IMG/VR virus record: IMGVR_UViG_3300024264_000006
Location: 83,637-147,636 of that record
DNA: 64,000 bases
Reading direction: 5' to 3' (one strand)
DNA from: a virus
Shown piece after piece: positions 53,792 through 60,276 of the stretch. Each line of letters starts with the position of its first letter. Within the stretch, counting starts at the first letter, position 1. The notes below the pieces were generated by a model, which saw only the letters and a list, made by a program, of their open reading frames with translations, was not told where the DNA came from and did no database searches. The position numbers and the translations under genes were made by a program.

Positions 53792-54125
53792 CGTCTATCA
53801 CCTTAGCTTTTTCATTCTGTAGAAGTCGTTGTAAGTCGCTTGTTGATCCAAGAAATAAATTATTATTGGTTGTGTTCCCAAGTTTTTTGGGATCATCTTC
53901 ACGATCTATTTCTTTCTTTTGTTTATTCAGAGCCATGAGTTTGTCGTTGATGTCTGCCATGTTTTTCATCATACCAGACAATACTTCAAACGCACGAGGA
54001 TGTTCGCTTTCACGTGCTACCTCAATCATGAGTTCCATACTCTCTCTACCTTTTTCTAGTAGATCGTAGTATGTCTCTCTTGAGTATTGGTAATCATTAT
54101 CTACATTATCATTACGTTTTGTCAT
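53772..54125 (-). CDS. 16: Terminase small subunit gp16
   Basis: 117 residues (T4: 164; marine relatives are shorter). The core ESEHPRAFEVLSGMMKNMAD and INDKLMALNKQKKE is diagnostic. It recognises DNA and stimulates gp17. Its start overlaps the gp15 stop. Confidence 0.9.
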   Translation of the reverse strand: MTKRNDNVDNDYQYSRETYYDLLEKGRESMELMIEVARESEHPRAFEVLSGMMKNMADINDKLMALNKQKKEIDREDDPKKLGNTTNNNLFLGSTSDLQRLLQNEKAKVIDVEPPPE

Positions 54126-54892
54126 GCACTGCTATCCAAATATTGAATCAAAAATCCATAGTCGCTGTCGGGACTCACTCCTACAGGCGTTGGAGTTATG
54201 TTTATGTTCGTATAGAACGTATCACTGTCTCCCATAATATATAGATTATTATTAACTTCACGTATAATGCCTTGTTCAACATTAGGCCCATAGAATGCAA
54301 TTTTCATTGTAAAATCAAGATTATATATAATGGTTCTTCTCTGTTCTAGTGCACCCTCAAAAGTATCTTCGAAAGAAACCCCTTCAAGTACTACAGGCAC
54401 ATCTTCTTTGACATCTGGGAGATCAGAGAATGGTTTTATCGTCACCGTATATTGTGGTGCGAAATACGGTATAATTTGTTCTACTATTTGTAACGCATCA
54501 TCCTGAGACTTTGCGTAAATACTTAATTGAAATGATACGTCATAAGGTACAGACGTAAACATTTTGTACCTTTTAGTAATGTCATTTTCAAATTCGTTTT
54601 GAACACGGTTTACTTTAGGTAATTGTCTTGCTGGGTCATAGGTCATCTGAGTAATTTCAAATGACATACGAGGAAGTTTCATCGCAACTTTACGTTCTGC
54701 TTCCTCTCCCTTTGACATCTCTGCCAGTCTTTGGATAAAGTTTCTCTTAGGCGCATAAGATAAAGGCACCTTTACCTGAGAAATAATCTCACCGCCAGCA
54801 TTTGCTCTGAGGACGTGCAAGTCGTTAAACAACGATCCGAATACAGATACCGCTGTTCTAACTCTCTTGTGATAAAAATGTGTTCCAAACAT
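54122..54892 (-). CDS. 15: Tail completion/sheath stabiliser gp15
   Basis: 256 residues (T4: 272). Begins MFGTHFYHKRVRTAVSVFGS, with VPLSYAPKRNFIQRLAEM and PRMSFEITQMTYDPARQLPK, characteristic of gp15. It caps the tail and joins it to the neck. Order gp13-gp14-gp15-gp16-gp17 follows T4. Confidence 0.95.
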   Translation of the reverse strand: MFGTHFYHKRVRTAVSVFGSLFNDLHVLRANAGGEIISQVKVPLSYAPKRNFIQRLAEMSKGEEAERKVAMKLPRMSFEITQMTYDPARQLPKVNRVQNEFENDITKRYKMFTSVPYDVSFQLSIYAKSQDDALQIVEQIIPYFAPQYTVTIKPFSDLPDVKEDVPVVLEGVSFEDTFEGALEQRRTIIYNLDFTMKIAFYGPNVEQGIIREVNNNLYIMGDSDTFYTNINITPTPVGVSPDSDYGFLIQYLDSSA

Positions 54893-56601
54893 TATTCCAT
54901 GTCTCCAAAGGGATTAGATTCGGAGAAGTCTAGGAAGTCACCCTCAAAATCATCAAATATCGTGTTCTGAGATTCCTGTTGAATCTCTTGTAATTCTTCT
55001 ACCAGACTGGGAACCCAACTTGCATTCGCACCTGATATAGGACGATTAACATTGAACTGTCGGTATTCTCCATCTGTAGAACCACAGTGAGCCAATTGAA
55101 GAACTCTATCAGAGTCACTCCAGTCTGTAACCTCACCCTTCATAGTATATGTAGAGTTTACTTGAGATACTACTTCCCCAATAATAAAGTTACCACCCGA
55201 ATCTGGGGCAGAGAATATTGGAGATGGTGCATTTGAATACAAGAATCCTGACGTAACTAATGTTAGTCCGGTTACACTACCTGTTGTTGCATCAATCGTA
55301 GCAGTAGCAGTAGCTGGTGTTCCGTCCGCATGTTCTAGTGTTATTGTATTAGAACCACTATCGTTCACTGAGGTTGGTACTGTAAAGTCTGAGTCTCCTA
55401 CTAGAGTACTTACACTACCAGCTCGGAAATGAATCTCATCTAGGTTACCCGCAGTAACTTTCCAGTCTGTACCACCGAAGGTTCTACTAGAAAATGCACC
55501 CAACGAGTATCCTGAAGACGTTGCAAATGGATCAGTATAACCAATAGCAGAGTCCATTTCCTTTGTACCATTTACCCACACATGAACATCACCTGAATCT
55601 AAAGCAAACGCAATATGTTCAAATGAACCACGAGTAAGAGTAGAAGTACTTGCAACTCTAGGGGTTGCCATTCCACTTCCCCTTTGGTATACTAATGCAC
55701 CAGATGAGTTTATACCCCACATGGTTTGATTGCCGGCACTATCACCACCGTGTAACAATATAGAAGAGAATTCTCCAGCAGATGGATACTCACTAACACG
55801 GATAAACATGTCTACCACACCGTTATCGGATGGAAACAAGAAAGAGTCTTCTACGCCCAGAGCCTGTGACATGTCGATACTGTTCCTACCAAAATAAGAT
55901 ATGTCACCTGAATCGGGTTGTGGGAAGGTTACCGTTGGCGCAGTTGTATAACCACGTCCAGCTGTAGACAGAGATATGGTGTCCACACCACCGGCTTGGT
56001 TGATTGTTGAACCAGCAGTAGGTAAACTACCAAAACTATCTCTTGTTCTCATAGTAAGTTTATACTGGAAGGCACCTTCGTACTCAATATCGTCTATGGT
56101 ATCAATACCAGTATCAAAGTCTTCATCGTTGTATTCGAACAATTCAGCTTGTAGTCTAAACGTAGGCAGATTACTTAGTTGATAGAATGGCGTCTCAGTT
56201 TCTACTTTGTTAATTTGGAAGATAGATTTGGAGAGAGACAGATAAATGACATCGCCTTCTCTTGGTCGAAACTTGTTTGAATCTAAGTAGTTACCGATAA
56301 GTTGTTTCCAACGTTTACGAGCAACTACGAATGTGGCTTGATCTCTTAGTTCAATACCAAATTTTGTGAACAGGTCACCCTCACCTTCGAATCCTTCAGT
56401 GTTCTCAATGTACATCTCTATTTTGTAGGCGTCAGAGAAACGTGAGGGTACATCATCAAGGAATACTTTATCCTTGTTGACTATTTCTCTTGGTATGTAG
56501 TAAACGTCCTGACCGTAGAACTTTAAAGACTCAATTACGATGTCTTCATAAAGGTTTTGTTCCGATCTGACTGTTTGACTGATATATGGATTTGTTGCCA
56601 C
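54892..56601 (-). CDS. 14: Neck protein gp14 with inserted lectin-like (LamG) domain
   Basis: 569 residues, over twice T4 gp14 (256). Residues 1-190 are gp14 (NPYISQTVRSEQNLYEDIVI, LKFYGQDVYYIPREIVNKD), and the end (about 475-569) is the gp14 C-terminus. Between them are two 'GxGYt.APtvtF'-type beta units (about 203-230 and 425-465). A LamG/concanavalin-like sandwich lies at about 232-398, with VDMFIRVSEYPSAGEFSSIL, FEHIAFALDSGDVHVWVNG and NLDEIHF. This would decorate the neck with a carbohydrate-binding module. Confidence 0.85.
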   Translation of the reverse strand: MATNPYISQTVRSEQNLYEDIVIESLKFYGQDVYYIPREIVNKDKVFLDDVPSRFSDAYKIEMYIENTEGFEGEGDLFTKFGIELRDQATFVVARKRWKQLIGNYLDSNKFRPREGDVIYLSLSKSIFQINKVETETPFYQLSNLPTFRLQAELFEYNDEDFDTGIDTIDDIEYEGAFQYKLTMRTRDSFGSLPTAGSTINQAGGVDTISLSTAGRGYTTAPTVTFPQPDSGDISYFGRNSIDMSQALGVEDSFLFPSDNGVVDMFIRVSEYPSAGEFSSILLHGGDSAGNQTMWGINSSGALVYQRGSGMATPRVASTSTLTRGSFEHIAFALDSGDVHVWVNGTKEMDSAIGYTDPFATSSGYSLGAFSSRTFGGTDWKVTAGNLDEIHFRAGSVSTLVGDSDFTVPTSVNDSGSNTITLEHADGTPATATATIDATTGSVTGLTLVTSGFLYSNAPSPIFSAPDSGGNFIIGEVVSQVNSTYTMKGEVTDWSDSDRVLQLAHCGSTDGEYRQFNVNRPISGANASWVPSLVEELQEIQQESQNTIFDDFEGDFLDFSESNPFGDME

Positions 56602-56607
56602 GTCTTA

Positions 56608-57384
56608 TCACCCTATGAAGAAGACAGGGCCTACATCCTCTTCATCCCTAAACTTTTGCATTAATCTTTCCATGTCATTGAGAGCATCTTCATAGATTTG
56701 TCTCCCACTGATCGTCACTCCGCCGGGCAGTTGCATTCCTTCGAATTTTAAGAGGTTTATACCCCATTGTTTTTTGATCAAACACACAGTATATTCTTTA
56801 AGGAAAGCGTGGTTCCAAAGAGAATGGTTTATGGTCGTTGTCGTTGAGTTTGTTGATAGTTCTTTGAATCCATATCCTTCGATAACAATAAAATCTCCCA
56901 CGCTCAATTTTTCTTTATTTAAATAAAAGTGAAGTCTACCTTCCTGTCTATCGAAAGTGATTTCTGGTTGACCATTCAATTTCATGTCCAACAAAGATAA
57001 GTGTTGTTGCATCTGTTCGTAGTATGCTATGTCACCCGCAAAATTATTTAGGTCGGTAATATCATTCAACATCATTTGATATTTCACATCAAAAAAGTTG
57101 GTTGTCTGGGACATCGTGTTTACAGGAAACATTCTAACAATGGTCTGAATACGAGGAGCTGATTCATGAAGATCGATAAATCCATTGGTAATATCATCTT
57201 GAGTTACAGCGTGACTTACATAAAGGCGTCGAGTTCCATCTGGATGATGTTCACGAAACCATTGAATTGCTTCATCAACGTTATCTTCAAGCTGTTCGTC
57301 ATCTACATTAATTTCAACTACAGGAGCTCCTAACCTACGTAGGCACCAATCGGTGAACTCATCTCTACTATTTGGTATTGCCAT
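56608..57384 (-). CDS. 13: Neck protein gp13
   Basis: 258 residues (T4: 309). Begins with RDEFTDWCLRRLGAPVVEIN and VDEAIQWFREHHPDGTRRLY, and includes NHSLWNHAFLKEYTVCLIKK and MQLPGGVTISGRQIYEDALN, the gp13 core. It connects the portal to gp14 and the tail. Sits 12 bases after the large fibre gene. Confidence 0.95.
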   Translation of the reverse strand: MAIPNSRDEFTDWCLRRLGAPVVEINVDDEQLEDNVDEAIQWFREHHPDGTRRLYVSHAVTQDDITNGFIDLHESAPRIQTIVRMFPVNTMSQTTNFFDVKYQMMLNDITDLNNFAGDIAYYEQMQQHLSLLDMKLNGQPEITFDRQEGRLHFYLNKEKLSVGDFIVIEGYGFKELSTNSTTTTINHSLWNHAFLKEYTVCLIKKQWGINLLKFEGMQLPGGVTISGRQIYEDALNDMERLMQKFRDEEDVGPVFFIG

Positions 57385-57396
57385 TATACTGTCCTA

Positions 57397-60276
57397 TTAG
57401 TTTTGTAGTGTTCCACTAGCATCGTATACGTTGATTCTATAGTAAGCTCCGTGTTGTCCGTCAAGTAAGTCGGCATCCAATCCTGAAGTTGCTCCGTCCA
57501 CTGTCTTAATCGCAGTTAAGAGTTCAGCAGCAGTTGAGTATGTTTCACTGAATGAGAATGCACCTGTTCCTGAGTTGTAACCTAAGTCACCGGATGCACT
57601 GAACATTCCTTTAACGTTTGCAGAGTCAAGGTTGAATTCTCCATTAGTAACAGAAAGTCCCTTGTTTGCAGTTAAGTGTGCTCTTACTTCAGCAGCACTA
57701 GGCCCTGTATAGGTAATAACACCTGTTGAACTATTGTATGATGCACTTCCATCTCCACCCGCATCGGTTACCGATATAGCACCTCTTGCACGTGCAGTGG
57801 TATGATAGAGGTTAGACCCTTCTGGTAGATCATCCGTCTTGAGATGATTGATACCATCACTATCAATAACAGTTGTTAATGCGACTGCGCCTGTTCCATC
57901 AAAAGAAACGGCACTTGCAGTCACATCACCTGTTAAGGAGAAGTTTTGACTACTTGCAAGAGCAGTTGCAGTGTCAGCGTTACCTGTTACCGCACCAGTT
58001 ACATTACCGTAGAAGTTTGCTGCTTGAACGTTTGCGTTTGTAAGTGTCAAGTCACCAGTTGATGCACCTGTAGCAGTTGTAGTTGCAAATACTACTCTGT
58101 CTATACTTTCATCCCAACCCATGAACACATTGTCACCAGTTGTTCCTCTTTCGAGAACAAGACCAAGGTCATTAGCGTTTGCACCTGAGTTGCCTGAACC
58201 AAGTTCAATCAACGCATCTTCGATTGTTGTGTTGGTTGCACTGTTAGTTACAGTACTACCATTGACAGTCAAATTGCCTGTGATTACTACGTTACCACTC
58301 GCATCAACATCTGCGAACTGTACGTTGTCAGAAGTTCCTACTGCTTGACCAATACTGATTGCACCGTCATTATACGTTACACCAGTACCACCACTAAACA
58401 GACCTTTAATCTGTGTCGCAGTTCTATCTGAATCAGTGTAAGAGAATACGCCATCCGAATATGATAGGTCGCCACCCGCACTAAACATTCCCTTGACATT
58501 TGCAGAGTCAATATTAAACTCACCATTAGAAACGGAGAGTCCTTTGTTTGCGGTTAAATGCGCTCTTACTTCAGCAGCACTAGGCCCTGTAAATGTAAAT
58601 CTGCCTGTTCCAGAATCATATGAGAGCGAACCATCTCCACCAACATCGGATAGACCAATTGCATTTCTTGCTCTTGCGTCTGTATAGTAAAGATTTGTAT
58701 TTTCTGTTAAGTCGGCTGTGGTGAAAGGGTCGAGTGATATGACATCCGTAAAGTTTCCACCAGTTGTTTGTATTGTAATAGTTGCGTCTGAACTATCAAA
58801 GTCAACCCCTGTAACACCCGCAATAGTAATGTTCTTTGCAGAGTCGATTTGACCCTGTGCATTTACTGAGAACTGTGGTACTTGTGTAGAAGAACCGAAT
58901 GTTCCCGCACTGACCCCAGAATTAGTAATGCTGATCGCACCACTACTCAAGGTTATACCAGTGCTACCACTAAAGTGTGCTCTTGCTTCTGCAGCAGAAG
59001 GCCCTGTGTATGAGAATCTACCGGAAGCAGAGTCATATGTCAGAGACCCGTCACCACCCTGATCATGAAGACCAATGGCATTACGTGCACGTGTATCTGT
59101 GTAATAGAGGTTGGATGACCCTTCACTCAAATCGTCGGTTGAACCTGAGTCAATCGCAACGTTAAAGTCGGAATCAAAGTTTGCTTTAGTGTAGACTTGT
59201 TCTACATCAAATGAGAATACACCAGTAGAAGAATCGTAAGATAGATCACCTGTTGCACTAAACATTCTACGTACATTTTCTGAGTCAATATTAAACTCAC
59301 CACTACCAGTATCATAACTGAGACCTTTGTTACCTGATACGGCCGCTCTCGCTCTAGCATCGGTATAATACTGATTTGTCCCTTCAGATAAGTCGGATGT
59401 AGATTTTTGACTTAAGTCTAAATTAGCACCAACTTGTAATGCGATTCTAGCATCAGCTCTTGCATTTGTATAATACTGATTTGACCCTTCAGATAAGTCG
59501 GTGGTAGTATACGGGTCTAGCGTGATTGTGTCGAGGAATGTTTGACCATCAGCAGTATTGATTGTGAAGTTACCGTTGGAAGAATCGAAGTTGATGCTTG
59601 AAACACCAGCTACACTTACTGTACCAATACTATCGATTTGTCCTTGTGCATTGACAGTGAATACGGGAACGAGAGACGCACTGCCATATGTACCGGCTGT
59701 TACCCCAGTATTTGTTATAGAGATAGTACCACTAGCACTATCATAAGTAAGACCTGTACCTTGAACCATTGAAGCTCTGGCACGTGCTTCGGTAAAGTAT
59801 TTGTTTATGCCTTCTGTTAAATCAGTAGTAGTTGAGGATGATTCGTCTAATAGTTTGTGCCATGCACCACCATGTGCAAAGTAACCTTTGCCTGTTCCGT
59901 GTACGTGTGCGAACATACCATGATAAGATGAAGCATTTGGTAGGTCGCTGTCCGAACTGTAGACGTTAGCAAAGAGAACCTTATTACCACCCATATCAAG
60001 GTCTTGACGTGTGACATCCGAATCAACACGTGCAGTGGTATAATACTGCCTCGTACCTTCAGCGATATTGGTTGTCGTAAGGTCTTGACTATCACCCAGC
60101 GAAACAGTCAAATCGTTTATAGTGATTCCACTGTGAGCCAACATTGCATTTGCGATGACGGGTAACGATGCTGAATCGATACTACCGTCAGAACCGGCAA
60201 GTTGTGATCTGTCGTCTTTTACGAAACCAGATGTTGTCAACAGACTTGACAGAAATCTAGCTTTTGATTGTGCCAT
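57397..60276 (-). CDS. Repetitive tail fibre or appendage protein
   Basis: 959 residues built of repeats. At least seven units fit '[18 protein letters not shown]', and several fit '[33 protein letters not shown]' (quoted in part). One block, [20 protein letters not shown], is the common fibre 'nltV.Gt.t...t.t.i.D' unit. The shape is a long trimeric beta-fibre. The repeats are also visible in the DNA and are likely sites of recombination. The end ([10 protein letters not shown]) shows no chaperone domain. Late box 48 bases upstream. Confidence 0.8.

Follow-up and report, generated by a model that had tools for sequence, protein, structure and literature searches.

The gp14 gene and its neighbours

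The window analysed here is a stretch of 64,000 nucleotides from the record of an uncultured marine T4-like virus (IMG/VR IMGVR_UViG_3300024264_000006, positions 83,637 to 147,636), in which the neck genes keep the order found in T4: gp13, gp14, gp15 and small terminase. The features of the locus are collected in Table 1. Judged from its sequence, the 569-aa ORF is a member of the T4-type gp14 family: the Pfam family T4_neck-protein (PF11649) matches residues 4-173 (3.7e-32), T4 gp14 chains in the PDB align to residues 3-167 (1.2e-25), and phrog_460 (Hc2) covers residues 1-568 (1.1e-85). The gene is single-copy: the 147,636-base record contains no other T4_neck-protein match. The predicted model of an insert-free relative (locus L058) matches gp14 in the portal-neck-tail complex 9mkb (1.2e-10, 164 columns). 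The capsid proteins nearest to those of this virus come from C48C1 (for which no host is given) and from Methylophilales and Pelagibacter phages.

Table 1. Features of the gp14 locus. Positions refer to the window and residues to gp14.
Feature	Position	Strand	Basis
gp14 neck / head-closure (Hc2) protein	54892..56601	-	569 aa, GTG start, single uninterrupted ORF
T4-type gp14 core, residues 1-185	56047..56601	-	Pfam PF11649, 3.7e-32; T4 gp14 in PDB 9mkb/9lu4, 1.2e-25
First GxGY beta unit, residues 189-233; outer insert, first half	55903..56037	-	alignment with insert-free and 372-aa relatives; AF2 pLDDT ~90 or more
Beta-sandwich of LamG / concanavalin-like type, residues 234-400, flanked by the GxGY units	55402..55902	-	Pfam, Foldseek, held-out profile
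Linker with second GxGY beta unit, residues 401-469; outer insert, second half	55195..55401	-	same alignments; AF2
gp14 C-terminal beta arm, residues 470-537; its first strand (~178-188) precedes the insert	54991..55194	-	present in insert-free relatives; AF2
Conserved C-terminal tail FDDFEGDFLDFSESNPFGD	54895..54990	-	T4 gp14 end FESSPFDNDFMD similar by eye only
gp13 neck adaptor, 258 aa, lacking domain III, the fibritin-binding part of T4 gp13	56608..57384	-	alignment to T4 gp13
gp15 tail terminator	54122..54892	-	Pfam T4-gp15_tss, 2.3e-67; T4 gp15 in PDB, 2.2e-24

Upstream of gp13, at the place that wac occupies in T4, lies the gene of a 959-aa repeat-rich, fibre-like protein (window 57397-60276, minus strand), with matches to phrog_697 (structural) and to tail-fibre families.

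A LamG domain nested within an insert

At 569 residues the protein is far longer than T4 gp14 (256 aa) and than its marine insert-free relatives, which mostly have 272-300 residues (about 290). When it is aligned with the closest of these relatives, the whole insert comprises residues ~189-469, or ~281 residues. It enters the C-terminal arm of gp14 at the arm's first loop, between the strand FQYKLTM and GNFIIGEVV, where it replaces a few residues, and both the core and the tail of gp14 are kept despite the insertion. Within the insert, the LamG domain is preceded by the GxGY unit GRGYTTAPTVTF and followed by the unit SGFLYSNAPSPIF. The arm itself, whose strands are predicted at residues 178-183, 476-480, 485-494, 499-507 and 530-536, is present in insert-free relatives and absent from T4 gp14; the profile of the insert-free relatives aligns with T4 gp14 only as far as residue 194.

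Pfam Laminin_G_3 matches residues 258-391 with 28.6 bits, just above the cut-off of 27.6, and the LamG-form relatives that were scanned score 30.2-49.5 bits, except for one (L021) with no listed match. We also built a LamG profile from which the window sequence and its three nearest relatives were held out. The window domain scores 125 bits with this profile, while none of 1,000 shuffles exceeds 10.2 bits. By this comparison, together with the stronger matches of the relatives, a chance or weak LamG call is ruled out.

In an AlphaFold model (AF2; 49 relatives), pLDDT reaches ~90 or more for almost every part of residues 190-530 and exceeds 90 for most of the LamG domain; block means are mostly above 90 between about residues 180 and 530. 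Confidence is low for the N-terminal core in this model of the 569-aa protein, and the core and the insert are therefore not placed relative to each other. In Foldseek searches the insert matches the LamG domains of perlecan, agrin and neurexin, as well as PAPP-A, pentraxins, the CBM40 of sialidase and domain 4 of the arabinanase AbnA, with E-values of ~1e-5 to 1e-7 for LamG, pentraxin, CBM40 and AbnA domain 4. TM-scores are ~0.5 when normalised by single-domain targets, and the rmsd of many alignments is large because the query is multi-domain. Among viral proteins, Foldseek returns many LamG/concanavalin proteins and one cyanophage neck protein. The model and these searches support a LamG domain built into gp14, with an autonomous fold that is predicted confidently.

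These results agree with most of a preliminary description of the locus, made from sequence alone. It had called the length of gp14 abnormal and had read a LamG/concanavalin sandwich at about 55404-55908, set between two GxGY units; the LamG domain lies at 55402-55902, and both units are present. The AF2 model and Foldseek give the middle of gp14 a LamG-like fold, as opposed to a neck or whisker fold unrelated to lectins. The description needs correction at one point. The LamG domain does form the middle of the extra part, but it is not by itself the insert, which consists of the GxGY units together with LamG. T4-like gp14 was expected on both sides of the domain; it is found on the N-terminal side, whereas on the C-terminal side only a short tail resembles T4, as judged by eye. 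Apart from its LamG insert, which is real, the gp14 of this virus is ordinary.

Architectures of gp14 among relatives

We collected 158 complete gp14 genes from scans of viral contigs and from annotated phages. No recognised insert is found in 92 of them (mostly 289-315 aa), two GxGY units in 10 (~372 aa), GxGY units with LamG in 43 (559-592 aa), LamG with a cupredoxin-like domain in 7 (678-872 aa), arrays of GxGY units in 4, all from cyanophages, and a cupredoxin-like domain in a neighbouring loop in 2 (422 aa); these counts are not frequencies, because the loci of the first scan were ordered by how closely they resemble the window protein. When the gp14 core alone is used for the scan, LamG occurs in 4 of 80 loci (L093, L096, L098 and L139), and the last of these represents a second gp14 lineage with LamG at the same position. 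The gp14 proteins of Pelagibacter and Methylophilales phages have 272-290 residues. Those of the cyanophages S-CAM9, ACG-2014f, P-TIM68, S-MbCM25 and S-B05 carry GxGY units at the same place, and Pfam finds no LamG in any of these five.

The cupredoxin-like call is weak: Copper-bind falls under its cut-off, auracyanin A is matched at 3.7e-4 and blue-copper proteins at higher E-values, and an H...C..H..M pattern is read by eye. In the two 422-aa proteins (L168 1814-3079 and L170 2057-3322) the cupredoxin-like stretch lies in the neighbouring arm loop. This version has no relevant match among PDB sequences, and the phage families that it does match consist of fibre and baseplate proteins; gp13 at these two loci has 321 residues, compared with the usual ~251. 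The 872-aa gp14 of L096 (2998-5613) has a cupredoxin-like domain after LamG and, apparently inside that domain, a further stretch of ~150 residues, a beta domain by eye, with no PHROG match. A single loop holds a nested series: empty, GxGY, GxGY with LamG, the same with a cupredoxin-like domain, and finally a stretch apparently inside the cupredoxin.

These mixed architectures rule out an extension common to all relatives; in particular, the relatives do not have one non-lectin extension in common, and such sharing would have spoken against the preliminary description. In marine T4-like phages, insertions recur at the arm loop of gp14. At five loci (L126, L147, L151, L157 and L159) the gp14 ORF has only 197-201 residues from the start of the core, the arm being missing or in another frame.

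Search for LamG outside gp14

We searched 24 records for Laminin_G_3. In 15 of them gp14 is long, and every one of these gives a single match; the open frames at these matches have 565-680 codons, which is the length of gp14; the 9 records with an insert-free or GxGY-only gp14 have none. Queries with LamG alone, which reach close relatives only, return 43 loci (L174-L216), of which 40 lie in an ORF with a gp14 core and 3 in an ORF cut at the contig start. Against 50,697 phage records, the window LamG has no match at E <= 1, and no record covers 80% of the 569-aa protein. The LamG of L052 has weak matches among phage records (E 0.3-8), a good part of which fall in tail or structural proteins. 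We found no papers on gp14 inserts in the open-access literature.

One exception among the fetched loci is that of the cyanophage metaG-MbCM1 (L091), with a 2,521-codon frame that weakly matches the LamG profile (22.8 bits). The same phage has a 2,409-aa protein (L091 20957-28186; NC_019443.1 80956-88185) annotated as 'gp14 neck protein' (T4-GC_117), and its gp14 core lies in a 308-aa 'head closure Hc2' protein (95845-96771). The label of the larger protein possibly arose through shared GxGY units, a case in which repeats of this type mislead annotation. In Melnitz-2, a protein with an F5/8 type C domain is encoded between the small and large terminase genes, near the neck genes (L086 5011-7044; MZ577096.1 117010-119043).

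Gain, loss and divergence of the insert

On a tree of the gp14 core (187 columns, 106 rows), the presence of LamG, with or without cupredoxin, requires at least 6 changes, the presence of any insert 10, and all six architectures 13, compared with ~34 for shuffled labels. Even if only the starred branches are counted, 6 changes are required for the group with LamG but without cupredoxin and 8 for the insert-free group; the exact numbers of changes are uncertain, since in places long branches meet and forks are open.

Among the LamG forms, the median pairwise identity is 0.34 for LamG and 0.79 for the core. For 112 pairs of moderate core divergence, which are not independent of one another and whose pS is near saturation, LamG has a median pN of 0.25, the core 0.07, gp13 0.13 and gp15 0.15, and the corresponding medians of pS are 0.69, 0.74, 0.67 and 0.69. 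The pN/pS of LamG is ~0.37, and its residues change ~3.5 times faster than those of the core. Since pN is high in LamG while pS is about equal to that of its neighbours, we conclude that LamG evolves faster at the protein level and is still constrained by purifying selection, not decaying. Recent swapping of LamG alone is rejected as the main source of divergence, because its pS resembles that of the neighbouring genes; the divergence is therefore mostly descent with fast change. In one pair (L010 and L014), identity jumps from 61-79% to 100% at about nucleotide 300 of gp14 and stays there, which may reflect recombination or an assembly chimera.

Function of the insert

Our best explanation as a whole, to which we give a probability of roughly 55%, is that a permissive loop of the gp14 arm displays passenger domains on the neck, with binding to glycans or surfaces as the proposed role. 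The gp14 core would keep its role in T4, forming a ring under gp13, a gate and a dock for the tail, and the C-terminal beta arm would have one permissive loop that accepts self-folding passenger domains. These would be displayed on the exterior of the neck, in the present case as two GxGY units bearing LamG; six LamG domains would ring the head-tail junction if gp14 is hexameric as in T4, the source of the copy number; the T4 hexamer has stopper loops in the channel (PMC12270204). LamG would bind, weakly and reversibly, to sugars on the host surface, to exopolysaccharide or to particles, and its binding would add to that of the tail fibres without replacing them. By analogy with T4 gp14, we think it probable that LamG is displayed on the exterior of the neck. 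Region 178-256 of gp14 docks gp15 in the virion of T4 (PMC12270204), although the comparison holds only in part, because the beta arm is missing from T4 at this point.

Adhesion to glycans or surfaces would be the likeliest single role to have been selected, with RB43 fibritin and the Milano collar as precedents, and we hold it at somewhat under even odds. In favour of the whole explanation we count an insertion that spares core and tail, the confidently predicted fold, the single LamG match in a frame of gp14 length in each of 15 records, the 40 of 43 LamG loci that lie in gp14 ORFs, the second lineage with LamG at the same position, the repeated gain and loss of LamG, and its constrained but fast change. 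Against adhesion we count the carbohydrate-binding module of the A-1(L) neck fibre, which showed no host binding (PMC10966104). Many close relatives are without LamG, so infection does not generally depend on it.

LamG folds also act as protein-binding or purely structural domains, and the GxGY and LamG sandwiches could pack on gp13, gp15, the sheath or each other and stiffen the neck, with no ligand. Such a role would have a precedent in the Milano collar, which has a glycan-binding-like domain and is proposed to strengthen the neck (PMC10491603); it would also suit the T4 counterpart region, which adjoins the gp15 dock (PMC12270204), and the GxGY-only forms and cyanophage arrays, which have no lectin domain and from which it follows that the site also takes plain beta repeats. 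However, divergence as strong as that of LamG is unlike a tight packing surface, the lengths of gp13 and gp15 are about equal with and without LamG, and LamG has been gained or lost repeatedly, so that we regard a purely structural role as unlikely. The loop might also simply tolerate insertions spread by recombination, with little function. The many architectures in one loop, their repeated gain and loss, and the relatives of the cupredoxin-like domain in other virion proteins all fit a near-neutral passenger; the pN/pS of LamG, the intact ORFs and the retention of LamG in many lineages argue against one, and we judge it improbable.

It is important, finally, to consider the whisker, since a whisker-like device had been among the suggestions for this insert. 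T4 fibritin binds domain III of gp13, residues 190-239 (PMC12270204), and acts on the long tail fibres (PMC3797505). In the alignment of the window gp13 with that of T4, residues 4-181 correspond to T4 6-197 and residues 185-244 to T4 237-296, such that T4 residues 198-236 are represented by only 3 residues; no Fibritin_C match at E <= 1 occurs in the 147,636-base, possibly incomplete record. Given a gp13 without the fibritin-binding segment and no Fibritin_C match, the sequences make a T4-type whisker unlikely. The same two observations, together with the action of T4 fibritin on long tail fibres, would favour an insert that holds or senses those fibres in place of fibritin, without touching the host. 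Yet the gp13 of insert-free relatives is of about the same length (median 251-253 aa), and LamG therefore does not appear as compensation; nor is a LamG sandwich a coiled-coil fibre, and a diverged whisker could be present despite the missing Pfam match. We consequently give a whisker substitute a low probability.

Neck proteins are usually treated as conserved plumbing. In these phages the neck looks like a place where displayed domains can be exchanged, and a ring protein with a permissive loop that repeatedly takes up lectin-type and other beta domains would give marine phages a variable surface at the neck. A bolder version, which we advance only tentatively and consider rather doubtful, is that evolution has made the arm loop of marine T4-like phages a dedicated socket for binding modules carried on the neck, in which domains are added within domains (arm, GxGY, LamG, cupredoxin-like domain, further stretch) to give a third fast-changing contact surface beside the tail fibres and the baseplate. 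The gp14 insert offers a concrete site at which neck-borne adhesion is testable.

Comparison with known systems

The window gp14 resembles T4 gp14 (PDB 9mkb, 9lu4-9lu7; PMC12270204) in the fold and sequence of its core, in the gene order 13-14-15-16-17 and in having its C-terminal region next to gp15, but T4 gp14, at 256 aa, has neither the beta arm nor an insert. The gp14 proteins with GxGY arrays from Kyanoviridae cyanophages (S-CAM9, 657 aa; ACG-2014f, 492; P-TIM68, 471; S-MbCM25, 486) share the insertion point and the kind of beta unit, although they contain beta units only (~2-8) and no LamG by Pfam. LamG/concanavalin folds do occur on the virions of marine phages (BFVD matches; pelagimyophages, PMC7029224), mostly in other virion proteins such as those of the baseplate and fibres, and not in gp14.

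The neck fibre gp80 of A-1(L) likewise mounts a carbohydrate-binding module on the neck, at the fibre tip (PMC10966104); unlike the gp14 insert, it is a separate trimeric fibre, and its module did not bind the host. Precedents for glycan-binding-like or adhesive-type domains on phage necks are the Milano collar and RB43 fibritin. The collar protein gp13 of Milano places round the neck a beta-rich domain (the D domain) that resembles glycan-interacting proteins (PMC10491603), but it is a separate protein, arranged in stacked 15-mers, in a different type of phage. The Ig-like domains of RB43 fibritin represent a possible adhesive domain shown from the neck of a T4-like phage (PMC3797505); there the carrier is a separate whisker protein, and its domains are Ig-like instead of LamG.
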